Below are positions 18,745-58,198 of a DNA stretch of 64,000 nucleotides, one piece after another. Source of the DNA: Chromobacterium sp. ATCC 53434 (GTDB lineage Bacteria > Pseudomonadota > Gammaproteobacteria > Burkholderiales > Chromobacteriaceae). The position numbers and the translations under genes were made by a program. The notes under the pieces were generated by a model. That model worked only from the letters and a program-made list of their open reading frames with translations. It made no database searches and was not told the DNA's origin. Location of the stretch: positions 2,480,001 through 2,544,000 of the forward strand of contig NZ_CP025429.1 of assembly GCF_002848345.1 (NCBI RefSeq). The letters are read 5' to 3'. Each line of letters starts with the position of its first letter. The stretch's first letter is position 1.

Positions 18745-18748
18745 GCCG

Positions 18749-35715: not shown

Positions 35716-35735
35716 TGTCGCGGCTTTCAATTCTT

Positions 35736-41700: not shown

Positions 41701-42185
41701 CCGCCGTCCAGCAGCGTGCCCAATTCCTCCAGCAATATCCAGTAGGTCCAGCCGTCGATGGCGATATGCTCGAAACTCAGCAGCATCACCGCGTCCGAGC
41801 CGCTGCGCCAATACCAGTGGGCCCGGATCATCGGCGGCCTGGCGATGTCGAACGGCAGGATGCAATCCCGCTTGATCCGCGCCTGGAGCGCCTCGTCGCC
41901 TTCGTCGTCGACATCCACCTCGATCACCTCGACGACGGCGTCGTCGACGATGCGGTAGGCCAGCTCGCCGTCCGTCATTTCAAAAGCCGCCCGCAGCATC
42001 GAGTGCCGATCTATCAGCGACGACAAGGCGGCGGCCAGCCGCCGCGGGTTCAGATCGCCGCTGACGCTGGCGCAGAATGGACTATTGCTTTGACCCTGGC
42101 CGGCCGGGTTCAGCAAATACTGGATCCAACGGCTTTTCTGGGTTTCGGAAAGGGGGTAGCTCTGAGATTGGGCAGCGGCAGACAT
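35736..42185 (-). CDS. NRPS, initiating two modules (C-A-T-C/E-A-T)
   Basis: A 2149-residue synthetase with modules 1 and 2. It opens with a condensation domain ([14 protein letters not shown]) rather than an A domain, so the first residue is probably acylated. Its core reads EHIAIDG instead of HHxxxDG, with the catalytic second His kept. A1 code by eye: D-L-E-H-N-T-T-V-S. The Glu at the third position suits a basic side chain, and from memory this resembles codes for 2,4-diaminobutyrate (Dab), in line with the dat gene. C2 is a dual C/E domain (HHLLESEGD; core HHLIMDN). A2 code D-A-L-W-L-G-C-T-F is Val-like. Carrier serines lie near 1020 and 2085. ATG 42185 is preferred to the in-frame GTG at 42197. 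Confidence 0.94.
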
Positions 42186-42275
42186 ATTCCTACTCACGAG
42201 TCAGGAAGATTGAGAAATGGGCGCGAATCCAGGCGGGCGGCCCGGATGCCGGGCCGCCCAGCCGGGAGCGGTCGA

Positions 42276-43556
42276 TCAGGCCACGGAGGTTTCCACCGTC
42301 TGCCCCAGCAAGGCGAGCGCGCAGTCGGCGATGCGCTGCCCGGCGGACAGCAGCGTCCGGCGCTCCATCGTCAGCACCGGCATCAGCTTCAGCACCTCGT
42401 TGCGGGGGCCGCACACCTCGATCAACAGGCCGTCGTCGAACAGACGGCGCGCGGCGGCGCGCGCATGCTCGGGCTGGCTAAAGCGCAAACCCAGCATCAG
42501 GCCCTTGCCTATCACATCGATCTCGCCGGCCGCGGGGGCCGTGGCGCGGCGCAAGGCCTCGGCCAGCGCGTCGCCCTTGCTGGCCACTTCCCGCGCGAAA
42601 TCGGGCGTGCTCCAATACTTCTTCAGCGCCGCCGTGGCCATCACCATCGCCAGGTTGTTGCCGCGGAAAGTGCCGTTGTGCTCGCCCGGCTTCCAGATAT
42701 CGATCTCAGGCTTGATCAGGTTCAGCGAGAACGGCAGCCCCGCCCCGCTCAGGGACTTGGACAGGCAGACGATGTCCGGCTCTATGCCGGCGTGCTCGAA
42801 ACTGAAGAAGCGGCCGGTGCGGCCGCAGCCGGTCTGAATCTCGTCGACGATCAGCAAGGCGCCCAGCTGCCTGGCCAGCGCGGCCACGCCCTGCAGCCAT
42901 TTCGCCGAGGCGCAGTTCAGTCCGCCTTCGCCCTGCACGCACTCCAGCACGAAGGCCGCCGGCGCGTCTATGCCGAAACCCGGACGGCACAGCATGTCGC
43001 GCAACACGCCCAGCTGGCTGTCGACATCGCCCTGTATCGCGCCCTCGAACGGCAAGCGCACCACGCCCGGCACCTGCACCACCAGCGAAGCCCGCTTGAC
43101 GGCGTTGGCCGTCACCGACAAGGCGCCCAGCGACATGCCGTGATAGCCGCCGGAGAAGCAGGCGATGTCCGGCCGCTGCGTCACCTTCCGCGCCAGCTTC
43201 AGCGCCGCCTCCACCGCATTGGCCCCGGTCGGTCCGGTGAACTGCAGCTTGTAATCCAGCCCCCTGGGACGCAGGATCAGATCACGGAAGGCCTCGATGA
43301 ACTCGGCCTTGGCCTCGGTGTTCAGGTCCAGACCGTTCAAAATCCCTTCGCCGCGCATATAGGCCACCGCGGCTTCCACCATGTCTTCGTCGTTATGACC
43401 GTAGTTGAGCGATCCCGCGCCCGCGAAGAAATCCAGGTACCGTTTGCCGTCCACATCGCGCAAGAACTCTCCCTTGGCCTGGGAGAACACCGCGGGGAAG
43501 GCCCGGCAATAACTGCGCACTTCCGACTCCGTCTCATTGAAGATCGTTGCCACCAT
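42276..43556 (-). CDS. dat: Diaminobutyrate-2-oxoglutarate aminotransferase
   Basis: A 426-residue class III PLP aminotransferase of the EctB/Dat/PvdH group, which makes L-2,4-diaminobutyrate from aspartate semialdehyde with glutamate. Visible features: FTGPTGANAVEAALKLARK, the PLP-stacking region CFSGGYHGMSLGAL, LIVDEIQTGCGRTG with the cofactor-binding Asp, and the Schiff-base Lys in CLSKSLSG near residue 266. It is the first gene of the NRPS operon, 90 bases before the first synthetase, and no ectoine genes adjoin it, so it very probably feeds Dab to an A domain (A1 is the best candidate). A GGGAG ribosome-binding site lies about nine bases before the ATG. The 270-base upstream region is strikingly AT-rich. 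Confidence 0.92.
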   Translation of the reverse strand: MVATIFNETESEVRSYCRAFPAVFSQAKGEFLRDVDGKRYLDFFAGAGSLNYGHNDEDMVEAAVAYMRGEGILNGLDLNTEAKAEFIEAFRDLILRPRGLDYKLQFTGPTGANAVEAALKLARKVTQRPDIACFSGGYHGMSLGALSVTANAVKRASLVVQVPGVVRLPFEGAIQGDVDSQLGVLRDMLCRPGFGIDAPAAFVLECVQGEGGLNCASAKWLQGVAALARQLGALLIVDEIQTGCGRTGRFFSFEHAGIEPDIVCLSKSLSGAGLPFSLNLIKPEIDIWKPGEHNGTFRGNNLAMVMATAALKKYWSTPDFAREVASKGDALAEALRRATAPAAGEIDVIGKGLMLGLRFSQPEHARAAARRLFDDGLLIEVCGPRNEVLKLMPVLTMERRTLLSAGQRIADCALALLGQTVETSVA

Positions 43557-43745
43557 CGCACTCAGCTCCCGTACATATTTGTCATATTATTTGAATAGAA
43601 CAAATTACATTGAGATTATTACATGACAATGATTGACTAACAAAGCAAAAATTATGCAAAACAAATATAATTAAGACATTTCATTGCAAGACATTTTCAG
43701 TCGTTCTGCGGGGAATCGAGGCGGACGATAGCGATGATGGCAGGC

Positions 43746-44820: not shown

Positions 44821-45471
44821 CAATGGACTTCCTTGTCGTTTCTGCTCGGAAATGATCAATCTCTCCGACTGCCGGGAGGGGATGGCAGTTCGCCCTGCCC
44901 CGCCAGCGAATGAGAAAACGCCATAATATTGCTTCATGCATAAAATTATCAAATTTAAATTTCTTTAGCATATTTTCAATCAGAACAAACCATGCGCCCT
45001 CCCCGAGCGCTGCGCGCGGGAAATAAAAAAAGAGTCCTAAGCGCCTGTTCAAGATCTTTTTGCCGGCAACGCAGCCCAAACGCGGCGATCCGATCCGGCC
45101 CAGGCCGCCCGACGAAATCGCCGGGCGGCTGTTTAACAATCCATGCCAAATATTTCAACAGCATTATTAGGCATATCGCTGCGGCCGCCACGCCGGCCGA
45201 TCCCTCCGCTCCTGTCCTTGCGCAAAACGCCTGTGCGCCAAGGCTCCGGCCCATCGCGCCAGGCCGGCTTTTCGCGCCGGCGGCCCCTCGACCGGGCGAA
45301 AACCTCATGTCAAATCGGTAAAAATACTTATGAATAGATTACACAGACGGTGATATTTCCACATAACCATATATCAAAAAATTCTTGCATTCTGGGTACG
45401 CGTTTCTACGCTGAGAAAATCGCACACCGGCTGTTGAGTCCCCAGAACGTTGAATATCAAAGGATATTGAC
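44821..45471. other. 651-base intergenic control region between divergent units
   Basis: No convincing gene lies here; the short open frames have no family features. It must hold the promoters of the DUF2860 gene (leftward) and the cupin-led operon (rightward). Visible elements: a GC stem GCCGCCCG/CGGGCGGC (45104-45129) followed by TGTTT, a possible terminator or remnant; an A7 tract at 45024-45030; AT-rich stretches at 44935-44980 and 45310-45400; and a weak TTGCAT at about 45394 upstream of the operon. The cupin gene has a clear AAAGGA ribosome-binding site. I saw no palindrome fitting a LuxR/CviR-type box. Confidence 0.5.
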
Positions 45472-46182
45472 ATGGAAATGTTCGACATACGCCAAGCACT
45501 GTCGCGACACGATCTGGACCAGCGCTTCCCATCCTGCCTGCATGTCCCGGCCGGCATCCAGGAGACCCGGGTGGAGCCCGGTTGCACCGCCTACGGTTTT
45601 GTCCTGCAGGGACCGCTGCAGGTCTTCCACGCCGATCTGGAGCAAACGCTGCACGCCGGCATGTTCTTCTCGGTGCCCGGCCCCGCGCGGCTCGGCCCCT
45701 TCGTCGGACTGGTCGGCATCCGCCAGGATTATCACGGCGCGCCGCTGTACGGCGGCCCGGTGGAGCGGCTGGGCCGGCTGAAATACATCGACGGCTGCTC
45801 CGACAGCCTGCTGATCTCGCCCATCATCAAGGGCGACCCCTGCCTCAACTACTTGTATGTGCCGCCGCACCTGCACCAGACCGCCCACACCCACCCGTCG
45901 GTGCGCATCGGCATCATCATCGAGGGCGAAGGCTATTGTCTGACCGAGCAGGAACGTCTGGAACTGGTCGCCGGCAAGATCTTCGTGCTGCCCGCCGACG
46001 AGATCCACAGTTTCCACACCGAACACAGCCCGCTGCGCATCGTGATCTACCACCCGGACTCGGACTTCGGCCCGACCCACGAGGAACATCCGATGATCAA
46101 CCGCACCCTGGTCGACGGCGTGTCCTTGGCCGGCGACAACCGTTATCGCACCAGCAAAATCTCCGAATACGTGGCCAACTGA
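45472..46182 (+). CDS. Cupin-domain protein
   Basis: A 236-residue protein of double-stranded beta-helix type. A metal site is likely: HQTAHTHPSVR (cupin motif 1, near residues 135-145) and GKIFVLPADEIHSFH (motif 2, near 169-183) supply three to four His; the usual motif 1 Glu seems replaced by Arg. An N-terminal degenerate cupin half (PAGIQETRVEPG, GMFFSVPG) suggests a bicupin. No helix-turn-helix is seen, so it is an enzyme or binding protein rather than an AraC regulator. It is the first gene of the plus-strand operon and lies six bases before an aminoacyl-tRNA-synthetase-like gene, recalling the cupin-MetRS fusions that form N-N bonds, though here the synthetase is class II. Confidence 0.8.
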   Translation: MEMFDIRQALSRHDLDQRFPSCLHVPAGIQETRVEPGCTAYGFVLQGPLQVFHADLEQTLHAGMFFSVPGPARLGPFVGLVGIRQDYHGAPLYGGPVERLGRLKYIDGCSDSLLISPIIKGDPCLNYLYVPPHLHQTAHTHPSVRIGIIIEGEGYCLTEQERLELVAGKIFVLPADEIHSFHTEHSPLRIVIYHPDSDFGPTHEEHPMINRTLVDGVSLAGDNRYRTSKISEYVAN

Positions 46183-46187
46183 GCCCC

Positions 46188-47780
46188 ATGCCAAGCGATG
46201 TCCATCCGGGCCCCCCGTGCCCGCAGATCGACGCGGACGCGCTGTCCGGCGCCCTGCCGCCCCTGCCCGGCTGGCTGGCCGACCTGCGCCCGGTCGCGCC
46301 GCGGCTGCCGTGGCCGCCGCGCCCGTCCGAGCCGAGCCTCGACCTGAACCAGGGCGAATTCGCGCGCCTGCTCAAGCAGGCCGGCGTCTGCGACCTCGGC
46401 GCCGTGCCGGTGCCCGGCGCCTGCGTGCTGCTGCCATGGGGCGTGGCGCTGAGCGAACGGCTGGCGCAATTGCTGCGCGAGGCCTTCGGCGAGCTGGAGC
46501 TGGACGAGTACGCCTATCCCCAGGTGGTGCCGCAGGAATGCTTCGAGCCGATGGCCGATCTGCTGGACGCCGAGCGCTGCCTGCTGCAGGTGGCCACCGG
46601 CCTGGACCGGGCCCAGGGCCGCTCGCGCGGCGTGCTGACGCCCACCGGCGAACAGGTGATCGCCAGCCACTGGCGACAGTTGCTCAGCCAGCCTGAAACG
46701 CTGCCCATCCGCCTGTTCCAGCGCGCGCGCTATTTTCGGCCGGTCAGCTCGGCCGACCGCAGCGGCAAGGGCGTGTTCGCCGCGCTGGAGGCGGCCGACG
46801 TATTCGAATTCCACTGCTGCCACGCCGCCATGCCGGACGCGCAGCGCGATCTGCAACGGCTGCACCTGGGCCTGGCGCGGCTGGCGGAATCGCTGCCGCT
46901 GCCCCAGCTGGTCGGCGTGCGCCCGCCCTGGGGCAACCGCGAGGCCTTGTACGAATGGGCCGTCGGCGGCGACACCCCGTTGCCCAGCGGCGAATGCGTG
47001 CAGACCTCGGCGCTGTATTTTCAAGGACAGCGGCTGTCCCGACGCTATGACATCGGCCTGGGAAAGGGCGAGCAGCGGCGGCACGCCTGGCAGTTGGACG
47101 GCTTCGCCAGCCGGCGGATGCTGTACGCCCAGCTGTTCCTGTCGGCCAAGGCCGACGGCTCGCTGTCGGTTCATCCCCGGCTGGCGCCGGTGCAGGTGGC
47201 CATACTGGCGCGCGCCCCGGGCGAGGACGACGGGCGGCGGCTGCACGGCCTGCAACAGCGGCTGCGGGCGCTCGGCCTGCGTCCGGCGCTGGAACACTGC
47301 GACGACGCCAAGGCGCTGACGGCCAGAATCCGGCATTGGCGCAAGCGCGGCGCGCCGCTGCTGCTGCTGTATTTCGGCCAGCGCCATGCCCAGGACCTGC
47401 CCAGGCTGCGCCTGTACCGCACCGATACCGACCAGGAGCTGGAGCTGGAGCTGGCGACCGCCCCGACCGACGATGCCGACGCCTTGTCGCAGCGGCTGGC
47501 CGACGCGCTGGCCGATATCGACGACTACGCCGGCGCCGCCGTGCTGCGCCGCGCGCGCGGCCAGATCGCCTTCGCGGCGTCGGAAGCGGAGGCCCGCCAG
47601 GCGCTGGCGGCGCGCAAGAGCGTGATCGCGCCGGTCTGTCCGACGCGGCTGCACACCGAGGCGGTGGCGGCGTGGCGCATGGGAGAGCTGTGCAGCTTCG
47701 CGGCGGCGGACGAGCCCGCCCCGTGCATTTTTTCAGGCAGGCCGACCTGGGCGCGGGCCCTGCTGTCGCGGCGCATCTGA
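46188..47780 (+). CDS. Prolyl-tRNA-synthetase-like class II ligase paralogue
   Basis: A 530-residue protein with a class IIa synthetase core resembling ProRS: LPWGVALSERLAQLLREAFG with YAYPQVVPQECFEP (motif 1 region, about residues 83-120), GVLTPTGEQVIASHW in place of the GPTxEExI segment, LFQRARYFRP in place of the motif 2 KFRDE, then ADVFEFH. The C-terminal half has LAPVQVAIL and a HGTP-type anticodon-binding fold. Motif 2's Glu is replaced by Pro and the REF/KD residues by ALEAAD, so it is not expected to charge tRNA normally. Housekeeping ProRS would be elsewhere. In this operon it probably adenylates an amino acid for a biosynthetic step. Confidence 0.75.
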   Translation: MPSDVHPGPPCPQIDADALSGALPPLPGWLADLRPVAPRLPWPPRPSEPSLDLNQGEFARLLKQAGVCDLGAVPVPGACVLLPWGVALSERLAQLLREAFGELELDEYAYPQVVPQECFEPMADLLDAERCLLQVATGLDRAQGRSRGVLTPTGEQVIASHWRQLLSQPETLPIRLFQRARYFRPVSSADRSGKGVFAALEAADVFEFHCCHAAMPDAQRDLQRLHLGLARLAESLPLPQLVGVRPPWGNREALYEWAVGGDTPLPSGECVQTSALYFQGQRLSRRYDIGLGKGEQRRHAWQLDGFASRRMLYAQLFLSAKADGSLSVHPRLAPVQVAILARAPGEDDGRRLHGLQQRLRALGLRPALEHCDDAKALTARIRHWRKRGAPLLLLYFGQRHAQDLPRLRLYRTDTDQELELELATAPTDDADALSQRLADALADIDDYAGAAVLRRARGQIAFAASEAEARQALAARKSVIAPVCPTRLHTEAVAAWRMGELCSFAAADEPAPCIFSGRPTWARALLSRRI

Positions 47781-47811
47781 GCCCGGCCCCATCTTTAGCA
47801 AAGGAGAAGAC

Positions 47812-48888
47812 ATGACAAGCAGCCATGCGGATTCGCTGGAAATGATAGTCGGGCCGGTGCGCCTGCCGCTGAAGATCGACGACAGCGTCAACTATTTCCA
47901 GCTGCACTACTTCGAATTCCAGGGCAAGCGCTGGGCCTGCGCCGCGCTGGGCGACCTGTCCTCGCTGTCGGCGGTGCCGCTGCGGATAGAGTCGGCCTGC
48001 TTCTTCGGCCACGTGATGCACTCCCAGCAGTGCGATTGCGGCTTCCAGCTGGACGAGGCTTTCCGCCGCATCTCGCAGCGCCAGGGCGGACTGGTGATCT
48101 ACGGCATAGACCAGGACGCGCGCGGTCTGGGCATAGAAAAGCATTTCCGCATCTACGACTACCGGCAAAACCATAATCTGGACACCGACGAAGTCTACCA
48201 GCGCTTCCACGCCCCGCTGGACAGCCGCTCCTACGAGGCGGTGGCCGCCATCCTGCACTTCCTCCAGGTGGACAAGATCCTGCTGATGTCGAATAACCGC
48301 GCGCGGCTGGAGTTTCTGCGCGAGCAGGGCTTCCAGGTGGAGCGCGACGAAATCGAGGCGCCGCTGACCCGCTACAATATGGCCACCATGATGCTGGAAA
48401 AGGAAGACCTGGCCTACCAGTGGAGCTTCCAGACCCACGGCGACTGGCTGCGGCCGCTGCAGGAACGGGCAGAGGCGCACGCCGACCGCCGCGCGGCGAG
48501 CATCGTTTGCGACAACCGGCAGGTGGTGGCGGAATGGCAGGGCGACGACTGGGACGTGGCGCGGCATCTGCTGGCGGAACTGGCGCCGCGGCCCGAAGGC
48601 TCGCTGGTAGTCTATCTCAGCGACTTGCCGCGGCTGGACGAGCTGGCCGCCTATGCCGCCGTCGGCGCCCGCTTCGTCGTGGTCCCCTTCGCCGCGCTGC
48701 CCGGCTATCTGGAGCAGGAGGCGAACCGGCTGGGCATCAAGCTGCAGGATTGGGGCCGCGACAATAAATACAGCCAGCCGCGCCCACAATGGCAGTTGGA
48801 AGACCGGACCGACGACGGCCATGTCTACCGCCGCGGCGACGAACGCCGGCTATGCCAGCTGGACGGCGCCGCGGACACCGCGGTCTGA
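47812..48888 (+). CDS. GTP cyclohydrolase II (RibA)-like protein, altered active site
   Basis: A 358-residue protein whose residues 10-215 follow RibA. The zinc cysteines are intact with exact RibA spacing (Cys63, Cys74, Cys76 in ESACFFGH and QQCDCGFQL). The nucleotide region reads QDARGLGIEKHF, and the LDSR motif keeps the Asp and Arg. But RibA's GD becomes GH, and the conserved Tyr before DT (E. coli Tyr105) is Leu in NHNLDTDEV. A C-terminal extension of about 140 residues has no RibA counterpart. It may therefore act on a different nucleotide or stop at a different step. Clusters such as toxoflavin use a GCHII paralogue to divert GTP into products, a precedent for its presence here. Confidence 0.82.
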   Translation: MTSSHADSLEMIVGPVRLPLKIDDSVNYFQLHYFEFQGKRWACAALGDLSSLSAVPLRIESACFFGHVMHSQQCDCGFQLDEAFRRISQRQGGLVIYGIDQDARGLGIEKHFRIYDYRQNHNLDTDEVYQRFHAPLDSRSYEAVAAILHFLQVDKILLMSNNRARLEFLREQGFQVERDEIEAPLTRYNMATMMLEKEDLAYQWSFQTHGDWLRPLQERAEAHADRRAASIVCDNRQVVAEWQGDDWDVARHLLAELAPRPEGSLVVYLSDLPRLDELAAYAAVGARFVVVPFAALPGYLEQEANRLGIKLQDWGRDNKYSQPRPQWQLEDRTDDGHVYRRGDERRLCQLDGAADTAV

Positions 48889-48897
48889 GCGGCGGCG

Positions 48898-49593
48898 ATG
48901 CCCCACTATCCGGCCATTTCCACCTCCCGGCAGGCCGCGCTGGCCATCATGCAGGACGACGCGTCCTCCTGCCTGATGGTGGACAGCTTCAACGGCGCGC
49001 CCGCCAATATGCTCGGCTTCCGCTGCTTCAACCCGTTCCAGCTATGGCCGGAGCCGCTCATTCCGGTGCCGGGACAGCCCGGCGGGCTGGCGCGCTCGGT
49101 CGAATCGGTATGGCAGGGCCTGAAACTAGTCGATGGACACACCGATTTCGAGCAATTCCTGACGGCGCCGCGCAAGCGCCCCGGCGACGACGAACGCCGC
49201 CGCCTGGCCGGCTACTGCTATTCGGACAGCCGCTTCGTCTACGGCGACCGCCTGCTGGGCCTGCTGGAGGCGCGCTTTCTGATCTATCTGCCGACCTATC
49301 TGTTCCTGCTGCAGCGGCTGGCGCCGGAATCGGTGCTGAGCGAGCTGCGCCGGCACCTCGACGGCGTCGGCCCAGTGCTGTTCTACGACTGGGACGCCAA
49401 CCAGGACATCGCCGACATTTCCTGCTCGTTCAGCCACTCGGCCATCCTGGCCGCCTGGTTCAACGACACGCTGGAATTGCAATACCGCTCGCAAGCCAGG
49501 CTCCTGCTGTCCGAGGCCGACAGCCTGGCATTCGATGCCGCGCTGGACGGCCTGCTCGGCCGCTACCGCGCCTTCCACCAGGAGAAGCCATGA
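48898..49593 (+). CDS. Unrecognised biosynthetic-operon protein
   Basis: I cannot assign this 231-residue soluble protein with confidence. It begins after nine bases and overlaps the next gene by four (ATGA), so it is firmly in the operon. Conspicuous segments are GFRCFNPFQLWPEPLIPVPG, then RSVESVWQGLKLVDG and ARFLIYLPTYLFLL. The pattern 'surface-Pro then SVExxWQGLK' is one I associate with an uncharacterised bacterial family (possibly DUF6939) whose members carry purine- or nucleotide-like neighbours, but this is memory and unverified. No signal peptide, membrane helix or metal motif stands out. A partner of the GCHII-like enzyme is possible. Confidence 0.6.
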   Translation: MPHYPAISTSRQAALAIMQDDASSCLMVDSFNGAPANMLGFRCFNPFQLWPEPLIPVPGQPGGLARSVESVWQGLKLVDGHTDFEQFLTAPRKRPGDDERRRLAGYCYSDSRFVYGDRLLGLLEARFLIYLPTYLFLLQRLAPESVLSELRRHLDGVGPVLFYDWDANQDIADISCSFSHSAILAAWFNDTLELQYRSQARLLLSEADSLAFDAALDGLLGRYRAFHQEKP

Positions 49594-50972
49594 CCTTCGA
49601 CCCGGCTCTGGCCCGCCGGCTGTACTGGGGCTGCGAAAAGCTGCAGGGTCGCCAAGACGTGGCCCGCCGCCTGCAATGGCTGGAGGAAACCCAGCACCTG
49701 TCGCCGCAGGCCTGCCGCGAACTGCAGATGCGCAAGCTGCACGCGCTGCTGAGCCACGCCTACCAGAGCGTGCCCTACTACACCCGGGTATTCCGCGAAC
49801 GCGGCCTGGTGCCGGACGACTTCAACTCGCTGGCCGATCTGGCCAAGCTGCCGTTGCTGACCCGCCAGGCGCTGACCGCCAACCAGGCGGAACTGATCTC
49901 CAGCCGCGCCGACCGCGCCACGCTGCAGACCAACTACAGCAGCGGCTCCACCGGCAAGCGCGCCTGCTTCGCCCAGGACGCGGACTTCCGGCTGTGGATG
50001 CGCGCCCACCAGCTGCGCACCTATCAATGGTGCGCCGGCTGGAAAGTGGGCGAGCCGTTCGCGCTGCTATGGGGATCGTCCATCTACTGGAACCTGAAAA
50101 GCGTGTCGGACCAGCTGAAGAACCTGCTCAGCAACCGCCGGGAATTCAATACCTTCCGGCTGTCGCCGGAGCTGATAGGCCGCTTCACCCGCAGCCTGGC
50201 CCGCTTCAATCCGGTGCTGATCAGCACCTATACCAACGCCATGCACCTGATCGCGCGGCAGATGGAGCGCGAGACGATAACGGTGCCGGCGCTGCGAGCC
50301 ATCCAGGGCACGTCCGAACCGCTGCCCCCCATCATCCGCGAGCGGCTGCAGAAAGTCTTCGGCTGCGAGGTGTACGACAAATACGGCTCGCGCGAGACCA
50401 ATATCGTCGCGCATGAAAGCCCCTGCCACGACGGCATGCTGATCCAGGTGGAGAACGTCGCGGAGGAATTTCTCCGCGACGACGGCGCCGCCTGCCTGCC
50501 GGGCGAGACCGGCCGCGTGGTGCTGACCACGCTGAACAACTTCTCGATGCCGCTGATCCGCTACGAGACCAGCGATCTGGCCGCCCCGATGTCCGGCCAG
50601 TGCGCGTCCGGCCTCGGCCTGCCGCGCATGAGCCATGTCGCCGGCCGCCAGCAGGACCTGATCGTCACGCCGGACGGCGCCTATGTCGACGCCTATCTGT
50701 TCTCTTTCCTGATCATGCGTTTCGAGGAGATCGAATGGTTCCAGGTGGTGCAGGACAGCCTGGACAAGCTGCGCATCCGCCTGATGGCGCCGGCCGGCAT
50801 TTCCCGCCAGCGCTGCGACGCCATCGTCGAGCGCATCCACCACCATACCGGCTACCCGTTCGCCATCGAGTTCGAACAATTCGACCGCATGCCGGAATCG
50901 CCGACCGGCAAATTCCGGCTGTGCGTGTCGGCGCTCAGCGACGTCGGCACCCCCCACCCGGTGAATCCATGA
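49590..50972 (+). CDS. PaaK/CapK-like adenylate-forming ligase
   Basis: A 460-residue ANL-superfamily enzyme of the phenylacetate-CoA ligase type. Seen: the N-terminal LLSHAYQSVPYYTRVF typical of PaaK proteins, a Ser/Gly-rich P-loop NYSSGSTGK near residue 112, the core YDKYGSRETN near 263, RYETSDLA near 319, and a C-terminal subdomain ending PTGKFRL with the expected Lys. It should activate a carboxylate as acyl-AMP, then as CoA or carrier thioester. It overlaps both neighbours by four bases. In this operon it is the natural candidate for activating the acid made by the reductase and aldolase-like genes, possibly for the starter C domain of the NRPS. Confidence 0.85.
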   Translation: MTFDPALARRLYWGCEKLQGRQDVARRLQWLEETQHLSPQACRELQMRKLHALLSHAYQSVPYYTRVFRERGLVPDDFNSLADLAKLPLLTRQALTANQAELISSRADRATLQTNYSSGSTGKRACFAQDADFRLWMRAHQLRTYQWCAGWKVGEPFALLWGSSIYWNLKSVSDQLKNLLSNRREFNTFRLSPELIGRFTRSLARFNPVLISTYTNAMHLIARQMERETITVPALRAIQGTSEPLPPIIRERLQKVFGCEVYDKYGSRETNIVAHESPCHDGMLIQVENVAEEFLRDDGAACLPGETGRVVLTTLNNFSMPLIRYETSDLAAPMSGQCASGLGLPRMSHVAGRQQDLIVTPDGAYVDAYLFSFLIMRFEEIEWFQVVQDSLDKLRIRLMAPAGISRQRCDAIVERIHHHTGYPFAIEFEQFDRMPESPTGKFRLCVSALSDVGTPHPVNP

Positions 50973-52036
50973 ACGCCGACATCGCCGTGGACGAATTGCG
51001 CGAACTGGCGCGGCGCGCGCTGCAAGACCACGGCGCGCCGGCCGAGCTGGCGCGGCGGGTGGCCGACGATCTGCTGGAAAACGAACGGCTCGGCTACCCC
51101 TCGCATGGCGTGCTGCGCCTGATCGACTATATCGCCGACATCCGCGCCGGCAGGCTGGCCCCCTCGGCCCGGCCGGCCACGGAGCAGACCGCGCCCAATG
51201 TCGCCGTCGTCGACGGCCGGCGCGCCTTCGGCGTCCTGGCCCGCGAGGCCATCGCCGACGCCCTGCTGCGAATGAGCCGCGAACAGCCGCTGGCCATGGT
51301 CTGCCTGCGGCACGGCCACCACTTGGGCCGGCTCGCGGCGCTGGGCCGCCAGCTGGCCGGCGCGCCGCAACAGCCGCTGGCCGTGATGGGCTTCTGCAAT
51401 TTCCAGGGCCGCGGCCAGCGGGTGGCGGCGCCCGACGGACGCCTGGGCCGGCTGTGCACCAATCCGCTACTGCTGGCCTTTCCGTCCGACGACGCCGACC
51501 CGGTGGTGCTGGACATGAGCACCACCGCGGTGTCCGAAGGCTATGTCCGGCGCCGGGCGCAGGAGGGCGCGACGCTGCCGCCCGGCTGCCTGCTCGGCGC
51601 CGATGGCCAGCCGACGCAGGACCCGTCGCTGCTGTACGCCGATCCGCCGCAGGCGACCATGCAACCGCTGGGCGGCGAGCTGGCCGGCCACAAGGGCTAT
51701 GGCCTGGCCGTGCTGGTCGAGCTGCTGGCCGGCGCGCTGGCCGGCGCCGGCCATGTCACCCGGCCCGAAGACGCCGGCAACGGCGGCCTGTTCCTGGCGA
51801 TCAATCCCGCCCTCGCGCCGTCCGGCCTGGCCGCCGTCAAGGCCGAGGCGTCCGCCATCGCCGGGCACTGCCGCGAAACCGGACAGGCTGGCCGTTTGGC
51901 CAGGATGCCCGGCGAAGGCTACGCCGAACGCCGCCGCGCCGCGTCGGCGCAGACCATACTGACACTTCCCGCCGTCACGCTGAACGCCATCCGGCGCCTC
52001 GCCGGACAGTCCCTGGAGAATCCGCATGTCGAATAA
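50969..52036 (+). CDS. Ldh_2-family NAD(P)H-dependent dehydrogenase
   Basis: A 355-residue member of the malate/L-lactate/ureidoglycolate dehydrogenase family (Ldh_2). Signatures: LGYPSHGVLRLIDYI (catalytic His, near residue 47), a nicotinamide-binding region around DMSTTAVSEG and the GHKGYGLAVLVELLAG loop. Family members reduce 2-oxo acids or cyclic imines such as piperideine-2-carboxylate. It overlaps the ligase gene before it and the HpcH-like gene after it, so a 2-oxo acid produced by an aldolase step is an obvious substrate. The true substrate is not readable. Confidence 0.87.
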   Translation: MNADIAVDELRELARRALQDHGAPAELARRVADDLLENERLGYPSHGVLRLIDYIADIRAGRLAPSARPATEQTAPNVAVVDGRRAFGVLAREAIADALLRMSREQPLAMVCLRHGHHLGRLAALGRQLAGAPQQPLAVMGFCNFQGRGQRVAAPDGRLGRLCTNPLLLAFPSDDADPVVLDMSTTAVSEGYVRRRAQEGATLPPGCLLGADGQPTQDPSLLYADPPQATMQPLGGELAGHKGYGLAVLVELLAGALAGAGHVTRPEDAGNGGLFLAINPALAPSGLAAVKAEASAIAGHCRETGQAGRLARMPGEGYAERRRAASAQTILTLPAVTLNAIRRLAGQSLENPHVE

Positions 52037-52829
52037 AGCGCCGCTTCACCCGCTGCTGAACACCGGCAACCCGGTCAGGGACAAGCTGGCCGCCGGCCAC
52101 ACCTGTTTCGGCCTGTTCCTGGTATCGGCCAGCGCGCTGATCGCCGAATGCTGCGCCACCCGCGGCCCGGACTGGCTGCTGGTGGACATGGAGGCCTCGC
52201 CGGCGGACCGCCGCGACCTGATCCAGATGCTTCAGGCGATGAACGGTTCGCGCACCACCGGCATGGCCAGGGTGGCGCGCAACGAGCGCCACCTGATAGA
52301 GGCGGCGTTGGACTGCGGCGCGCTGGGGCTCATGGTGCCCAAGGTGGAATCGGCGGCCGAGGCGCGGGCGGTGGCGGACTGCGCCTACTATCCGCCGCGC
52401 GGCCACCGCGGCGTCAATCCGATTCGCTGCTCCGGCTATTTTTCGCGTCTGCCCGACTACTTCGCCGAGGCCAATCACGCGCTGCTGACCATCGTCCAGA
52501 TCGAGTCGGCGCAAGCGGTGGCCGCCGCCGACGAGATCGCCGCCGTCGACGGCATAGACGTGCTGTTCGTCGGCTGCGGCGATCTGGCCTGCGACCTGGG
52601 CCAGGCCGGCCAGGTGACCGGCGCGCTGATGGACGCCGCCATCGAACAGGTGCTGGAGGCCTGCCACCGCCACGGCAAGATTCCCGGCATCTTCGCCTAC
52701 AGCCTGGAGTTGGCGCAGCGCTACGCCCGTCAGGGCTTCCGCTTCGTCGCCTTCGGCAACGACATGAAACTGCTGGCGCAGTCGCTGGAACAGCAAATGC
52801 GCAGCCTGGACGAATTCGCCTCACCATGA
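52026..52829 (+). CDS. HpcH/HpaI aldolase-family protein lacking the catalytic His
   Basis: A 267-residue TIM-barrel protein of the HpcH/HpaI (pyruvate class II aldolase/CitE) family. The metal ligands appear present (Glu in VQIESAQA near residue 161; Asp in FVGCGDLA near 187), as does the YPPRGHRGVN loop. However, the DxEH catalytic His of HpaI (His45) is Ala57 here (VDMEAS), and its Asp partner is replaced by Glu in ARNERHL. It may thus catalyse retro-reaction-poor or altered chemistry, or act as a lyase/esterase like other CitE-type proteins. It overlaps the dehydrogenase gene by 11 bases. Confidence 0.85.
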   Translation: MSNKAPLHPLLNTGNPVRDKLAAGHTCFGLFLVSASALIAECCATRGPDWLLVDMEASPADRRDLIQMLQAMNGSRTTGMARVARNERHLIEAALDCGALGLMVPKVESAAEARAVADCAYYPPRGHRGVNPIRCSGYFSRLPDYFAEANHALLTIVQIESAQAVAAADEIAAVDGIDVLFVGCGDLACDLGQAGQVTGALMDAAIEQVLEACHRHGKIPGIFAYSLELAQRYARQGFRFVAFGNDMKLLAQSLEQQMRSLDEFASP

Positions 52830-52916
52830 TGCGACTCCCGCCATCGCACCATGCGCTTGCAAACTGGCGGTTTGGCATGCCCACCGTTGCACAGGTCAAG
52901 ACTTTGGGAGATTGAT

Positions 52917-53432
52917 ATGGTCGCACACACTGAAACCCGCGCCGCCGACCACGCCGGCGCGGCGGCAGGCGCCGACGCCGGCGTCGAATCGCACGGCGCC
53001 TCCGGCCGCGAGGCGGAAGCGCTGGCGCTGATGCGCAGCTACATGCCCTGGGCCGCCGGCGCCGGCCTGGTGCCGGTGCCGCTGCTGGACATGGCGGTGA
53101 TCGCCGGCGTGCAGCTGAAGTTCCTGGCCAGGCTGTCGGCGCTGTACCAGGTGCCGTTCAGCGAGAACCAGGCCAAGTCCATCATCGCCGCCCTGCTGGG
53201 CAGCGTGGTGCCGGCCAGCCTGGCCACCACGGTATTCTCGCTGCTGAAGGGGATTCCGCTGCTGGGCTTCGCCGCCAGCTTTCTGACGTTGCCGGCGCTG
53301 GGCGCGGCCTCCACTTACGCGCTGGGCAAGGTGTTCATCCAGCACTTCGAGTCCGGCGGCACCTTCCTCAACTTCGATCCGCAGAAAGTGCGCAGCTATT
53401 ACCAGGAGCAGTTCGAGCAAGCAAAAAAATAA
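52917..53432 (+). CDS. DUF697 / YcjF-like membrane protein
   Basis: A 171-residue protein with a charged N-terminal stretch (about residues 1-38), then a DUF697-type region: YMPWAAGAGLVPVPLLDMAVIAGVQLKFL forming the first hydrophobic helix pair and SLLKGIPLLGFAASFLTLPALGAASTYALGK the second. DUF697 proteins are inner-membrane proteins of unknown role, often beside small GTPases. The start at 52917 has a GGGAG ribosome-binding site. An 87-base gap after the HpcH-like gene and a GC-rich hairpin after its own stop (about 53447-53465) suggest it may be separately transcribed. Confidence 0.78.
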   Translation: MVAHTETRAADHAGAAAGADAGVESHGASGREAEALALMRSYMPWAAGAGLVPVPLLDMAVIAGVQLKFLARLSALYQVPFSENQAKSIIAALLGSVVPASLATTVFSLLKGIPLLGFAASFLTLPALGAASTYALGKVFIQHFESGGTFLNFDPQKVRSYYQEQFEQAKK

Positions 53433-53493
53433 CGATCCGGTCCGGCCCGCGGCCTGGCGCCGCGGCCGGGCCGTCCGCCGGAAGCCCTGCCCG

Positions 53494-54036
53494 ATGACGC
53501 CTAACCGCCCTCGCCGGCCGCACCGCGGCCCGCTCCTCCCCGCCCTTTGCGCCGCCGCGGCCTGGGCACTGGCCGCCCACGCCGATTTTCCCTATACCAA
53601 GGACCAGACCTCGCCGGTGCAGACCGCCACGCGAACCCCGCCGGTGCAGCACGGCGCCATCGACGTCGCCATCAGCCAGGCCCATGTCTACGGCCTGGAC
53701 TCCGGGGGCTCGCACAGCTATTGCTCGCCGTCCATCAAGATCATCAACCACTCGCAGGACACGCTGCGGACGCTGATACTCGGCATCGAATACCACCGAA
53801 ACGGCAGCCGCGAATCCTCCGGCTCCTCGGTGGTCAATCTGAACTTGCCGCTGGAGCCGGACAATTACACCACCACCTATTTCAATCCGCTCAGCGTCTC
53901 CAGCTGCAAGGACCTGCAGGGCACCGTCACCGTGCTGAGCTGCCAGTACGCCTTCAACGGCGACTGCGAGGCCGACGTGCACGCCATAGGCTTCGGCGCC
54001 ATTCCGCTGCAGCGCGCCGCCGGCAAGAAACCATGA
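53494..54036 (+). CDS. Unknown secreted protein
   Basis: A 180-residue protein I do not recognise. An Arg-rich start and a hydrophobic helix ending AAHADF form a classical signal peptide (cleavage near residue 30). The mature part is Ser/Asn/Thr-rich with predicted beta strands and four cysteines (HSYCSPS, VSSCKD, LSCQYA, GDCEAD), suited to two disulfides in the periplasm. It lies 61 bases after the DUF697 gene and nine bases before a tiny membrane-protein gene that leads into the ABC exporter, so it may be a periplasmic accessory to export. Confidence 0.65.
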   Translation: MTPNRPRRPHRGPLLPALCAAAAWALAAHADFPYTKDQTSPVQTATRTPPVQHGAIDVAISQAHVYGLDSGGSHSYCSPSIKIINHSQDTLRTLILGIEYHRNGSRESSGSSVVNLNLPLEPDNYTTTYFNPLSVSSCKDLQGTVTVLSCQYAFNGDCEADVHAIGFGAIPLQRAAGKKP

Positions 54037-54045
54037 GGCCACGCC

Positions 54046-54207
54046 ATGATCGTTTACTCCTACCTGGGACTGTGCCTGGTGGTCGCCTATATGGGCCGAC
54101 GCACCCGGCTGGGCTTTCTGCGCACCATGCTGTTCTCCATATTCATGACGCCGGTGCTGATGATGATCTATCTGCTGATCGCCTATTCCACCGACGAACG
54201 CCGCTGA
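54046..54207 (+). CDS. 53-residue two-helix membrane protein
   Basis: A short frame opening MIVYSYLGLCLVVAYMG and ending YSTDERR. It has two hydrophobic helices (about residues 4-16 and 28-47) separated by a basic loop (GRRTRLGFLR). A GAGG ribosome-binding site lies seven bases before the ATG. It sits between the secreted protein and the ABC exporter, each with short gaps and the same direction, which argues that it is translated. Small membrane proteins in such places often modulate transporters. I know of no family for it. Confidence 0.7.
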   Translation: MIVYSYLGLCLVVAYMGRRTRLGFLRTMLFSIFMTPVLMMIYLLIAYSTDERR

Positions 54208-54240
54208 GTCCAACCTTGTCCCCTTCCATCGCCCACTGAA

Positions 54241-55875
54241 ATGCTGCTATCCAAATTCCTGTTCCAACAAAGCAAGCTGCCGATGAAACGGCTGGGCGTG
54301 ATGGCCGCGCTGGCCAGCGCCTCCAACGCCGGTCTGCTCGCGGTGATCAATCACGCGGCCGAACACATCAAGGACGTGGACATGCAGTTTTTCCACGTGC
54401 TCATCTACGGCCTGGTGCTGAGCCTGTACATCTACAGCCAGCGCTACGTGCTGCTGGCGACCTGCGACGAGGTCGAGGACATCGTCCACCAGATCCGCTG
54501 CCGGATGGTGAAGACGCTGCAGTCCTGCGAGCTGGCCATGCTGGAACACAGCGGCCACGGCCGCATCTACTCGGCCATCTGCAACGACACCCAGACGCTG
54601 TCGCAGGCCGCCTGCACCATCGTGCTGGGCTTCCAGTCCGTCATCCTGATCGTGTTCGCCTCGCTGTACATCGCCTGGCTGTCCATCATGTCGCTGCTGC
54701 TGATCATCGCGGTGATGGCCGGCGCCACGCTGGTCTACTGGGCCAAGATGAAGTCGGTGCACGCCATGCTGCACCAGGCCAACGAGCAGGAAAGCCGGCT
54801 GCACGACCAGATCGGCAGCATGCTGAGCGGCTTCAAGGAGGTCAAGCTGTCCAGCCGCCGCGCCGGGGCGCTGATAGACGATGTCGAGGCCACGTCGCAG
54901 ATCACCGCCCAGCTGCGCAAGGTGGCCCAGCGCGGCATATCGGTCAATTTCATGTTCGCCCAGATCGCGCTGTTCCTGGTGCTGGGCAGCATGGTGTTCG
55001 TGCTGCCGGTGTTTTCGCCGGCCTATACCGACACCGTGATGAAGACGCTGACCGCGGTGCTGTTCCTGGTGGGGCCGATCTCAGGCATCATCGCCGCCAT
55101 CCCGCAAATCGCCACCGCCACCGCCGCGGTGGAAAACCTGCTGGAGCTGGAGCGTTCGCTGGTCAAGCACGCCCAGGCCAAGCAGGCCGACGCCGCCTCG
55201 GACGCGCCGGCCGCCTTCCGCAGCCTGGAACTGAAAGACATCCATTTCCGCCATGAACGCAGCGACGGCCAGGGTTTCGCCGTCGGGCCGATCAATCTGT
55301 CGGTCCGGGCCGGCGAAATCATCTTCATCACCGGCGGCAACGGCTCCGGCAAATCCACGCTGATCAAGCTGCTCACCGCGCTGTATCCGCCGGCCAGCGG
55401 CTCGCTGCTGCTGAACGGCCGCGCCGTCGCGGCGGAGCGGGCGCAGACCTACCGCGACCAGATTTGCGCGGTATTCTCCGACTTCCACCTGTTCGACAAG
55501 CTGTACGGACTGGAGGACTGGAGCCATCAGGAAGCGGAACGGCTGCTGGACGAGATGGAGATAGCCGACAAGGCCGAAATGGGCGAATACGGCTTCAACA
55601 CGCTGGACCTCTCCACCGGGCAGCGCAAGCGCCTGGCGCTGATCGCGGCGATGCTGGAGCACAAGCCCCTGTGCGTGCTCGACGAATGGGCCGCCGACCA
55701 GGACCCGCATTTCCGGCGCAAATTCTACGAAACTCTGGTCCCCAGCCTGCGCGAACGGGGCATGACCCTGATCGCGGTCACCCATGACGACCGCTATTTC
55801 CACCTGGCCGACCGCCGGCTGCACATGGAAGACGGTTGCCTGTACGAACTTGGCGAGGAAAGCCACCATGCCTGA
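54241..55875 (+). CDS. Cyclic-peptide-type ABC exporter (PvdE/SyrD-like)
   Basis: A 544-residue half-transporter with an N-terminal six-helix domain (to about residue 300) fused to an ATPase domain, the architecture of the cyclic-peptide export family that includes PvdE (pyoverdine) and SyrD (syringomycin). ATPase motifs: Walker A GGNGSGKST near residue 365, signature LSTGQRKRLAL near 457 (LSTGQ for LSGGQ, as in PvdE-like proteins), Walker B LCVLDEWAADQDP and the H-loop VTHDD. It should move the NRPS product or a precursor to the periplasm. Its stop overlaps the SPFH gene start by eight bases. Confidence 0.92.
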   Translation: MLLSKFLFQQSKLPMKRLGVMAALASASNAGLLAVINHAAEHIKDVDMQFFHVLIYGLVLSLYIYSQRYVLLATCDEVEDIVHQIRCRMVKTLQSCELAMLEHSGHGRIYSAICNDTQTLSQAACTIVLGFQSVILIVFASLYIAWLSIMSLLLIIAVMAGATLVYWAKMKSVHAMLHQANEQESRLHDQIGSMLSGFKEVKLSSRRAGALIDDVEATSQITAQLRKVAQRGISVNFMFAQIALFLVLGSMVFVLPVFSPAYTDTVMKTLTAVLFLVGPISGIIAAIPQIATATAAVENLLELERSLVKHAQAKQADAASDAPAAFRSLELKDIHFRHERSDGQGFAVGPINLSVRAGEIIFITGGNGSGKSTLIKLLTALYPPASGSLLLNGRAVAAERAQTYRDQICAVFSDFHLFDKLYGLEDWSHQEAERLLDEMEIADKAEMGEYGFNTLDLSTGQRKRLALIAAMLEHKPLCVLDEWAADQDPHFRRKFYETLVPSLRERGMTLIAVTHDDRYFHLADRRLHMEDGCLYELGEESHHA

Positions 55876-56812
55876 TGCCGCAGTCAGCGCCGCCGCCCCA
55901 CGCCGGCCGCTCCGACGTTTCGAAGCCTGGCTGCGGGAGTTGACCATTCCGTTCACGGTCGCCTTCGCCATCTTCGTCTTCCTGCTGCCGCTGATGATCT
56001 ACACCATCCGGCCCGGCCAGCTCGGCGTGCAATGGAAACGCTTCCAGGGCGGCACCCAGCTGGACCACATCTACGGCGAGGGCACCCATATCATCCTGCC
56101 CTGGGACCACATCTACATCTACGATTCCAGGCTGCAAAGAGTGGAACGGGACTTCGACGTGCTGTCGTCGGACGGCCTGACGATGAAGGTCAGCATGGCC
56201 TGGCGCTTCCGCATCAATCCATCCAATCTGCCCTATCTGCACCGCTACGCCGGCGAGAACTACGCCGAGACGCTGGTCGCCCCCAGCGTCGGCGCGCGCA
56301 CCCGCGACGTGATCGCCTATTACCGGCCGGAGCAGGTCTACACGCAGTCCCGGCTGACCATACAGCAGCAGATACTGTCCTCGGTGCGCTACGACCTGGT
56401 CAACAACTTCAATCCCGACGGCCGCAAGGGGCTGAAATGGGTGGAAATAGAGGACATCCTGATCAAGGCCGTCACGCTGCCGCCGGGCGTGCAGGAAGCC
56501 ATCATCAAAAAGAACACCGCCTATCAGGAAATGCAGACCTACAACTTCCTGCTGAGCAAGGAGGAAAAGGAGGCCGAGCGCAAGCGGATAGAGGCCACCG
56601 GCATCCGCCACTTCCAGGAAATCGTCAGCAACGGCATGAGCGACAGCTATCTGCGCTGGCGCGGCATAGAAGCCACCATTCAGCTGGCCAAGTCGGACAA
56701 CGCCAAGGTGGTGGTGATAGGCGCCGGCTCCAACGGCCTGCCGCTGATCATGAACATGGATGACAAGAAGGCGGAGGCGAGCAAGCCGAAGGCGCCGTCG
56801 CGCAAACCATGA
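55868..56812 (+). CDS. SPFH/prohibitin-like membrane protein
   Basis: A 314-residue protein with one N-terminal membrane helix (about residues 28-48, PFTVAFAIFVFLLPLMIY) followed by an SPFH/band 7 domain (GQLGVQWKRFQGGTQLDHIYGEG, then the VSMAWRFRIN segment and IKAVTLPPGVQEAI) and a charged helical tail. Such proteins scaffold membrane microdomains or proteases. Overlap with the ABC gene implies coupled expression, so it may organise the exporter. Its last 65 bases overlap, tail to tail, the convergent condensation-domain gene. Confidence 0.85.
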   Translation: MPDAAVSAAAPRRPLRRFEAWLRELTIPFTVAFAIFVFLLPLMIYTIRPGQLGVQWKRFQGGTQLDHIYGEGTHIILPWDHIYIYDSRLQRVERDFDVLSSDGLTMKVSMAWRFRINPSNLPYLHRYAGENYAETLVAPSVGARTRDVIAYYRPEQVYTQSRLTIQQQILSSVRYDLVNNFNPDGRKGLKWVEIEDILIKAVTLPPGVQEAIIKKNTAYQEMQTYNFLLSKEEKEAERKRIEATGIRHFQEIVSNGMSDSYLRWRGIEATIQLAKSDNAKVVVIGAGSNGLPLIMNMDDKKAEASKPKAPSRKP

Positions 56813-58028
56813 GCGTCATCCGCTCCAGCAGCGCCTCGGCCTGCTGCCGGCCCGGGCCGGCGGCGTTGTACACCAGGTCCAGCACCCAGCGCTCGCCGAA
56901 CTGCGTCGCCATCAGCTCGGTCTCGGCGCCGGCCCAGTTTAGGGCCGCGCCCAGATCCGGCCGCCACTGCGCCGCCAGGCCGGCATAAGCGTAATCCAGC
57001 AGGAAGTGCGGCCGCGGATTGAACTGATGGCGCGCCGGCCAGTGGCACAGGCCCAGCGCGCCGTGGCTGGCGAACAGATCGGGCCGCAACTGGCGCAGCA
57101 GATGCAGCACCGGCAAGGAATTGGCCTCGCAGTCGCGCACCGCCCGGCGCGTCGCGTCGCAGGCGGCGTCCAGACCGTCCGGCAGCCTGGGCGGCAGCAG
57201 GATGGGCAAGGCGTTGGAGAACAGGCCCAGGGTATTGCGCTGGGCCAAGCCGCGGTTGCCCATGCTGAGGTTGACCAGCAGCGGCCGCCGCGGCTCCATC
57301 TCCCGCAGCGCCAGCGCATAGGCCGCCAACAGCATGTTTCTGACCGCTTCCGCCCGCATTCCCGCGCCGACCCCGGGCGGCAGCTCGCGATGGATCAGCC
57401 CGGCCGGCCGCGGCTGATCGGGCGGCGGCGCATCGACGTCGATCGCGTCGGCCAGCGCATGACGCCACCATGCCAGGCGCCGCGCGCCGACCTCGCCGTC
57501 CAGCAAACTTCGCTCTTCGTCGATCGCCTCGCCGAAAGGCCGGCCGCCCGGCATGGCGACAGCGGCGTCTCCGGCCAACAGCGCGCCGTACTGCTTCAGC
57601 ACTTGCTGCAACAGCAGATGCACCGACCAGCCATCCAGCAGCGCGTGATGGAAGGTCAGGATCATGGCGCTGTCCCTGCCCTCCACATCCACCAGCGTGA
57701 AGCGGCACAGCGGCGGTTCGGCCAGATCGAAGGGCTCCGCATTGTCGCGGGCGGCCAGGCGCCGCAGGCCGGATTCCAGCTCCGCCGCCGCCAGCGCCTG
57801 ATACCGGCAGACGGCGTCGACCGGTCCGGCCCGCCGCACCGCCACTTCCGCGCCGTCGCCGACAAAACCCAGACGGAACACATCATGCCTGGCGAGCACC
57901 AGCCGCAGCGCCGCGCGCCACAGCTCCGGCGCCGCCGGCCCCCGCATCAGCGCGGTGACGGTGATGTGCAGGTGTATCCCCTGCCAGGACGAACGGACGA
58001 AAAACTCCTGATTGGACTTGGCCCGCAT
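56748..58028 (-). CDS. Stand-alone condensation-domain protein (amide-synthase-like)
   Basis: A 426-residue protein formed by a single NRPS-type condensation domain with the complete active-site motif HHALLDGW near residue 128 and the C-terminal NLSMGNRGL and LGLFSNALP segments of the family. No A or carrier domain is attached. Free C domains join a carrier-bound or CoA-bound acyl group to a free amine. Its position at the end of the operon with the PaaK-like ligase suggests it couples the special building block to the peptide. The ATG at 58028 has GGGGA five bases upstream and is preferred to the GTG at 58073. It converges on the SPFH gene with a 65-base coding overlap. Confidence 0.88.
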   Translation of the reverse strand: MRAKSNQEFFVRSSWQGIHLHITVTALMRGPAAPELWRAALRLVLARHDVFRLGFVGDGAEVAVRRAGPVDAVCRYQALAAAELESGLRRLAARDNAEPFDLAEPPLCRFTLVDVEGRDSAMILTFHHALLDGWSVHLLLQQVLKQYGALLAGDAAVAMPGGRPFGEAIDEERSLLDGEVGARRLAWWRHALADAIDVDAPPPDQPRPAGLIHRELPPGVGAGMRAEAVRNMLLAAYALALREMEPRRPLLVNLSMGNRGLAQRNTLGLFSNALPILLPPRLPDGLDAACDATRRAVRDCEANSLPVLHLLRQLRPDLFASHGALGLCHWPARHQFNPRPHFLLDYAYAGLAAQWRPDLGAALNWAGAETELMATQFGERWVLDLVYNAAGPGRQQAEALLERMTLMVCATAPSACSPPPSCHPCS

Positions 58029-58198
58029 GATTCCCCGCAGGAAAACCGGCGGCAAGCGCCGCCGTGGCGTCACGAAAAGGCTATCGCCGCGAACGGCATG
58101 GCCGCGCGACCGCCGATAGCAAACCCATTGTCATTATGGTTGCCCATCGGAGCAAGGCAAGCCGGCCTGCCGCCGCCATCCGTTTCGCCAATGAAAAA

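Follow-up and report, generated by a model that had tools for sequence, protein, structure and literature searches.

Which product is made by an operon that places a paralog of prolyl-tRNA synthetase (ProRS) beside an enzyme of the type that opens GTP? The question is raised by positions 45472-52829 (forward strand) of the 64,000-nucleotide stretch of Chromobacterium sp. ATCC 53434 DNA analyzed here (the window; positions 2480001-2544000 of a 5.14 Mb single-contig genome), where seven tightly packed genes, A to G, encode a bicupin, a ProRS-like protein, a GTP cyclohydrolase II (GCHII)-like protein, a DUF6939 protein, a PaaK-like enzyme, an Ldh_2 oxidoreductase, and an HpcH protein. These genes form one operon-like unit, a real biosynthetic cassette that is kept in distant hosts, and its gene content, conservation, linkage, protein families, and key-residue states are established. 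We tentatively interpret A-G, with confidence somewhat short of even, as a self-contained cassette for a GTP-derived ProRS inhibitor that would be aminoacylated by B; we infer the substrates, the order of the steps, the product, and the inhibition alike.

Operon organization and occurrence in other genomes

The intergenic gaps are 5 bp (A/B), 31 bp (B/C), and 9 bp (C/D), the D/E and E/F junctions are ATGA overlaps, and F and G overlap by 11 bp. All seven genes show the strong third-position GC expected of coding DNA, and gene B was assigned an ATG start, an alternative in-frame TTG at 46179 being one that would run into A. An earlier note on this DNA had proposed a seven-gene operon here, under a title that left out DUF6939, and the spacing, coding signal, and family assignments (Table 1) bear it out.

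To find related loci, a profile of the ProRS-like protein was searched against a one-genome-per-species collection, from which the genome of the window itself was possibly left out; 10 loci were recovered. For most of the database proteins matched in our searches the genomic context was not seen. GCHII was present in 8 of these loci, DUF6939 in 8, PaaK in 9, Ldh_2 in 8, and HpcH in 9. Because the core genes co-occur in 8 to 9 of the 10 ProRS-like loci, their association is not due to chance, and the possibility raised earlier that the genes might be unlinked in relatives is contradicted by the linkage kept in these loci.

All seven genes are found in C. subtsugae (82-95% identity; 91.5% for A) and in Xenorhabdus stockiae (58-85% identity; 69% for A). 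The Xenorhabdus operon sits between housekeeping genes, with an AsmA/dCTP-deaminase/uridine-kinase group on one side and a DoxX/Mrp-type group on the other; six of the eight flanking open reading frames (ORFs) scanned match AsmA, dCTP deaminase, uridine kinase, DoxX, DJ-1, and Mrp/ParA-type proteins, and two were unmatched. The locus tags of B, C, and D in C. haemolyticum are HA052_09640, HA052_09645, and HA052_09650, respectively. Five actinobacterial loci (L010-L014) hold six genes in the order C-D-E-B-F-G, and L008 has the same order but gave no match to Ldh_2 (F). A cupin of some kind occurs in 7 of the 10 loci, being of the A type in L006 and L007 and a single cupin in L008, L009, L010, L012, and L014, whereas in L011 and L013 a Rieske protein, encoded upstream of GCHII, replaces it. 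An alphaproteobacterial metagenome-assembled genome (L015) has the ProRS-like gene alone.

The seven-gene set is rare. Within the genus, 2 of 19 genomes have B (the present one and that of C. subtsugae). Of 394 genomes from the Streptomycetaceae, the family of the L013 host, 5 gave a ProRS-like match at E≤1e-80, all five being among the loci already found. In the order Burkholderiales, DUF6939 occurs in 2 of 399 genomes, namely the present genome and one with a copy of another subfamily.

Within L008-L014 and their flanks, YcaO, TfuA, and a CHAT-like protein (the last recognized by eye) occur in 5 of 7 genomes, a methyltransferase and a PhyH-type dioxygenase in 6 of 7, and kinase-Ldh_2 ORFs in several. 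L009 also carries a cupin, a kinase-like gene, and a ProRS, with an arginyl-tRNA synthetase gene nearby.

Sequence features of the ProRS-like protein B

B does not reach the cut-offs for Proline--tRNA ligase: it scored 60.5 bits against 437 for proS_fam_I, and proS_fam_II (cut-off 306.7) was not among its matches. Its best relative in the PDB is the archaeal ProRS 1nj1, which aligns with positions 51-522 of the 524-position profile of B (E = 1.2e-50). As judged from these profiles, B is a class II aminoacyl-tRNA synthetase (aaRS) of the ProRS type, ProRS-like and not a ProRS. The protein search gave 15 hits, a lower bound since the 8000 best-word candidates were scored, and 14 of the 15 rows were used for alignment (P0015 was dropped). 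Thr153, Glu155, Arg184, Tyr277, Arg309, and Arg310 are present in 14/14 rows and in 11/11 locus copies. In the side-chain pocket, all 14 rows have Val or Ile where ProRS has Trp/Phe, and Tyr in place of the SH-LGQ His; we take both positions to belong to the side-chain pocket of ProRS.

In human ProRS, Glu1123 contacts proline, Arg1152 contacts the α-phosphate of ATP, and Glu1154 and Arg1163 contact the γ-phosphate, according to PMC10331583. As read from the alignment, Glu155 of B lies at the Glu1123 position and Arg184 at that of Arg1152. The Glu1154 position is Val, Ile, Leu, or Ala in 14/14 rows, preceded by an invariant Pro, and is never Glu. The Arg1163 position (198 in B) is Ala or Ser in 10 rows, Tyr in 1, and Arg in 3; among the 11 locus copies it is Arg in 7, His in L009, and Ala or Ser in the three proteobacterial copies with the full operon. 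B thus appears to have an altered ATP site; the change, clearest in the branch to which this operon belongs, fits a transferase role without proving it.

Predicted functions of the remaining proteins

C exceeds the PF00925 cut-off (97.4 bits versus 23.3) and falls below that of the RibA equivalog TIGR00505 (93.4 bits versus 205.85). For alignment, 32 of 91 hits were used together with the window protein, 59 hits being dropped, and Cys63, Cys74, Cys76, Asp137, and Arg139 are invariant across the 33 rows; we take the three cysteines to be zinc ligands and the Asp/Arg pair to be catalytic residues of GTP cyclohydrolase II. A C-terminal extension (residues ∼205-358), which is well conserved, lies outside the Pfam match, and the AlphaFold2 model of C has a mean pLDDT of 92.9. 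The genome encodes three PF00925 proteins: C, one that is RibA-like and shows the customary motifs, and one that is RibBA-like, with no zinc cysteines in its GCHII half (motifs read by eye). The earlier suggestion of a GCHII paralog that diverts GTP is supported to the extent that C may do so. A cupin-GCHII fusion exists (P0128); an apparent GCHII-DUF6939 fusion (P0133) was set aside because it appears to be frameshifted. Relatives of C occur in Achromobacter (P0092), Paenibacillus (P0105), and Bacillus cereus (P0114), and the plasmid collection held no GCHII-like match at E≤1e-20.

D did not match Pfam NADAR, PF22075 being its sole family at E≤0.1, and is possibly an N-glycosidase of the NADAR fold, its best match among solved structures being a NADAR N-glycosidase. 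The DUF6939 alignment comprised 48 of 50 hits plus the window protein (P0060 and P0061 were dropped). DUF6939 copies outside the cluster fit the Pfam model far better (G026:C2:295245-295733, E = 1.4e-79; G306:C133:75319-75819, E = 1.9e-72).

A was called a bicupin from its length and the position of its match, and it has the HxH...H motif in the C-terminal cupin. E scored 28.9 bits for AMP-binding, slightly below the 29.9 cut-off, and matched PaaK-type NCBIfam models at 1.6e-28 and 5e-39, both below their cut-offs; it has an SSGSTG loop and, in 10/10 rows, the lysine of GKFRLC at its C-terminal end. The notion of a biosynthetic pathway with two acyl- or aminoacyl-activating folds, also put forward earlier, is supported. 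The His of the H(L/I)GRL motif of F is present in 9/9 aligned rows. G exceeds the PF03328 cut-off (142.7 bits versus 25) and retains Glu, Asp, and an Arg, the Glu/Asp pair presumably being the metal site.

A full-length ProRS adjoins the actinobacterial loci

A complete ProRS of bacterial type, above the proS_fam_II cut-off, is encoded in 7/7 actinobacterial loci (L008-L014), at distances from the HpcH gene, by our own ORF calls, of 57-228 bp in six loci and ∼2.6 kb in L011. The one scanned for it, that of L013, has an editing domain. All seven genomes encode a further ProRS above the cut-off elsewhere, and the copy beside the cluster suggests self-resistance by target duplication. The seven loci do not count as independent cases, since the L008 and L010 ProRSs are 98% identical.

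A tree was built from 27 ProRS sequences, and the program flagged long branches and uneven composition in it. Here the cluster ProRSs of all seven loci group with those of G483 and G450 (fork support 89/76). This group lies near the housekeeping ProRSs of Amycolatopsis, G543, Chromobacterium, and Xenorhabdus, and the other 14 Streptomyces family II copies are placed away from it. The seven do not form an exclusive group, which would need 2 changes, since G483 and G450 lie inside it. The ProRSs of these two genomes would represent either an orphan resistance gene or part of another ProRS-targeting cluster; their neighbors, judged by eye, include radical-SAM-like, deacetylase-like, and methyltransferase-like genes. 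The family II copies of the Streptomycetaceae genomes surveyed fall into several deep lineages.

Proposed pathway and alternative interpretations

In the pathway that we propose, C would open GTP and D would remove the sugar, leaving a free base of the 2,5,6-triaminopyrimidin-4-one type that replaces adenine; G and F would make or reshape a small oxo or hydroxy (or imino) acid, which E would adenylate and join to the base; and B, a ProRS paralog acting outside translation, would add a proline-like amino acid, whose donor would be an adenylate or a charged tRNA, so that the product would mimic prolyl-adenylate. The cupin would perform a tailoring step; in actinobacteria its place is taken by single-domain cupins or by a Rieske enzyme. 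Actinobacterial producers would be protected by the second ProRS adjoining the cluster. A bolder form of this proposal is that the cassettes define a family of natural ProRS inhibitors in Proteobacteria and Actinobacteria, undescribed in the literature searched and composed of a proline-like amino acid and a GTP-cut base replacing the purine, and that B, lacking the γ-phosphate Glu (and the matching Arg in the proteobacterial branch), would be an aminoacyl transferase and not an adenylating ligase; we regard this combination as unlikely. To our knowledge, natural bacterial ProRS inhibitors are few. Were the proposal true, it would describe a compact seven-gene pathway that is transferable as a whole to a laboratory host and has a predicted target, the housekeeping and cluster ProRSs would be a ready test pair, and DUF6939 would gain a testable N-glycosidase function as a second case of GCHII-plus-NADAR pairing.

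Several observations weigh against an aminoacylated ProRS inhibitor. The strongest is that Chromobacterium sp. ATCC 53434, C. subtsugae, and X. stockiae each encode one ProRS above the cut-off, and none beside the operon. In a Streptomycetaceae control of 150 genomes, 97 carry family II ProRS and 125 carry family I, at least 72 of the genomes having both if the two surveys drew the same 150 genomes; two ProRSs being ordinary in this family, the gene count was dropped as evidence of resistance, for which the argument therefore has to be made from adjacency. Family II itself is single-copy in 96 of those 97 genomes; the exception, G026, has a second copy, and one of its two lies in the cluster. 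The ProRSs of G483 and G450 (L059-L062) are 92-93% identical to that of L011, and no core genes were present in the stretches read around them. L009 (Kitasatospora sp. MBT63) has B-F-E and a reversed G, without GCHII and DUF6939. Because the arginine at the Arg1163 position of B is lost only in part (it is kept in 3/14 rows and 7/11 locus copies), loss of ligase activity is not established and the argument for a transferase is weaker. D had no Foldseek match at E≤0.001, and the DUF6939 profile gave no significant score with 13 NADARs, no better than the reversed control. Finally, G has D-x-E-A in 10/10 rows at the position of DGEH in HpaI, and so lacks the His presumed to be catalytic in that class II pyruvate aldolase.

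The same absence of a second ProRS from the three proteobacterial genomes, together with the side-chain-pocket residues by which B differs from ProRS in every row, would be explained if the product were a pterin or pyrimidine derivative unconnected with ProRS, B activating another acid and the neighboring ProRSs serving biosynthesis, for example by supplying Pro-tRNA to B. This is a real possibility, although we consider it rather less than probable given that a full ProRS adjoins every one of the actinobacterial loci and that SbzA, discussed below, offers a precedent uniting biosynthetic and resistance roles (PMC12945691). The earlier note had pointed to N-N bond formation. In this reading, B and the cupin would act as a split hydrazine synthetase on a GTP-derived base to give a hydrazine, triazine, or 7-azapteridine. 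The cupin and aaRS-like genes do lie side by side, as do the fused cupin and MetRS-like domains of the cupin-MetRS hydrazine synthetases, and some cupin accompanies most of the related loci; here, however, the two are separate ORFs, the synthetase is class II and ProRS-like, A-G include no N-hydroxylase, and L011 and L013 have the Rieske protein instead. A GCHII is likewise used for pseudoiodinine, but of the RibD, WD40, sulfatase-modifying factor, methyltransferase, and GCHII types of the psd cluster, as given in PMC9911603, A-G have only the last. An N-N-bonded product is not supported, and we view it as quite improbable.

Still less probable, in our estimation, is that the operon makes a building block for the five-module nonribosomal peptide synthetase (NRPS) of the window, with which it shares a neighborhood and which, with a class III aminotransferase gene, spans 25891-43586. 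In C. subtsugae, the sequence corresponding to 15813-18745 runs straight into that of 45353-57824 with no NRPS block between, and no match to the NRPS was obtained in that genome at E≤1e-200 (21 of 32 candidates scored). NRPSs of 65-71% identity (G018) and 68-69% identity (G009) are found in genomes that lack B, and no NRPS family was detected among the eight Xenorhabdus flanking ORFs scanned. The NRPS is separable from the operon, and a link between them is not supported. The earlier idea that the product is passed to a condensation domain fares differently in its two parts: the NRPS block is missing from C. subtsugae, whereas a stand-alone condensation domain is kept beside the operon there (79% identity). 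Phosmidosine, cispentacin, and amipurimycin were also considered and set aside as none explains GCHII, DUF6939, HpcH, and PaaK jointly. The ProRS-inhibitor interpretation is the best supported of those weighed, and one that we infer.

Comparison with known systems

SbzA, an extra IleRS of the Streptomyces SB-203208 cluster, transfers Ile from its tRNA to altemicidin and serves as both resistance copy and aminoacyl transferase, and the SB-203208/altemicidin group includes an IleRS inhibitor; AcmF, an AlaRS-like protein of ascamycin biosynthesis, aminoacylates a nucleoside sulfamate with Ala (both from PMC12945691). The present cassette resembles the SbzA cluster in having an aaRS paralog within a biosynthetic cluster, and the product of the SbzA cluster hits the same synthetase; it differs in that SbzA is IleRS-like and has a sulfonamide acceptor, whereas here a ProRS-like protein occurs with a GTP-opening branch, and in that the biosynthetic and putative resistance ProRSs of actinobacteria are two genes. 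AcmF, a class II enzyme, is an aaRS-like protein acting on a small molecule, the role predicted for B, but its substrate is an intact nucleoside, whereas GCHII and the N-glycosidase-like protein predict a free base. Of the traits of such systems, an aaRS paralog inside the cluster is represented by B, and a duplicate of the presumed target synthetase adjoins the cluster in 7/7 actinobacterial loci and in 0/3 proteobacterial genomes with the full set. By analogy, the cassette fits the logic of SbzA and AcmF, with ProRS and a GTP-derived base.

GCHII-NADAR fusions (RibA-COG3236) of Vibrio, and YbiA, act as N-glycosidases on early riboflavin intermediates, according to PMC5312566 and, for NADAR, PMC11543638. 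GCHII is similarly paired here with a predicted N-glycosidase, which makes D a plausible partner of C; unlike those proteins, C has its own C-terminal extension and is under the RibA cut-off, and DUF6939 lies outside Pfam NADAR. In the pathways of pseudoiodinine (and toxoflavin) and of 8-azaguanine, a GTP cyclohydrolase paralog diverts GTP to an antimetabolite (PMC9911603 and PMC7109123), that of 8-azaguanine differing in its use of a GTP cyclohydrolase I-like enzyme with an NO synthase. As the earlier note had anticipated, no described cluster with this gene set was found in the literature searched, which covered neither supplementary files nor most subscription papers; the cassette is new within that literature and may possibly be described elsewhere.

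Neighborhood of the operon in Chromobacterium

Table 1. Features of the window discussed in the text
Feature	Position	Strand	Length	Match or remark
A, bicupin	45472-46182	+	236 aa	Cupin_2, 9.9e-10 (residues 130-190)
B, ProRS-like class II aaRS paralog	46188-47780	+	530 aa	proS_fam_I, 1.4e-16
C, GTP cyclohydrolase II-like	47812-48888	+	358 aa	GTP_cyclohydro2 (PF00925), 8.8e-28 (residues 26-177)
D, DUF6939 protein	48898-49593	+	231 aa	DUF6939 (PF22075), 6.2e-22
E, PaaK-like adenylating enzyme	49590-50972	+	460 aa	AMP-binding, 6.7e-7
F, Ldh_2 oxidoreductase	50969-52036	+	355 aa	Ldh_2, 1e-70
G, HpcH/HpaI-family protein	52026-52829	+	267 aa	HpcH_HpaI, 1.4e-41
H, DUF697 protein	52851-53432	+		Next to the operon only in Chromobacterium (two loci)
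J, ABC exporter, cyclic-peptide export type	54241-55875	+		TIGR01194, 348.3 bits (cut-off 286.2)
K, accessory protein	55868-56812	+		In 2/19 genomes of the genus, the same two as B
Stand-alone NRPS condensation domain	56748-58073	-		HHALLDG (intact HHxxxDG)
Five-module NRPS	25891-42197	-

Downstream of the operon, Chromobacterium sp. ATCC 53434 and C. subtsugae share a block comprising the DUF697 protein, the ABC exporter J (92% identity), K, and the condensation domain, followed by a PurL-type gene. J is a candidate exporter in Chromobacterium. No match to proteins H, I, J, or K was found beside the Xenorhabdus operon, and none to the stand-alone condensation domain in loci L007-L029 and L090. 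Upstream, positions 18749-45300 of the window hold the NRPS, the class III aminotransferase, a major facilitator superfamily (MFS) transporter, and a DUF2860 protein, all absent from the matching C. subtsugae site; the NRPS/aminotransferase/MFS block represents either an insertion here or a loss in C. subtsugae.

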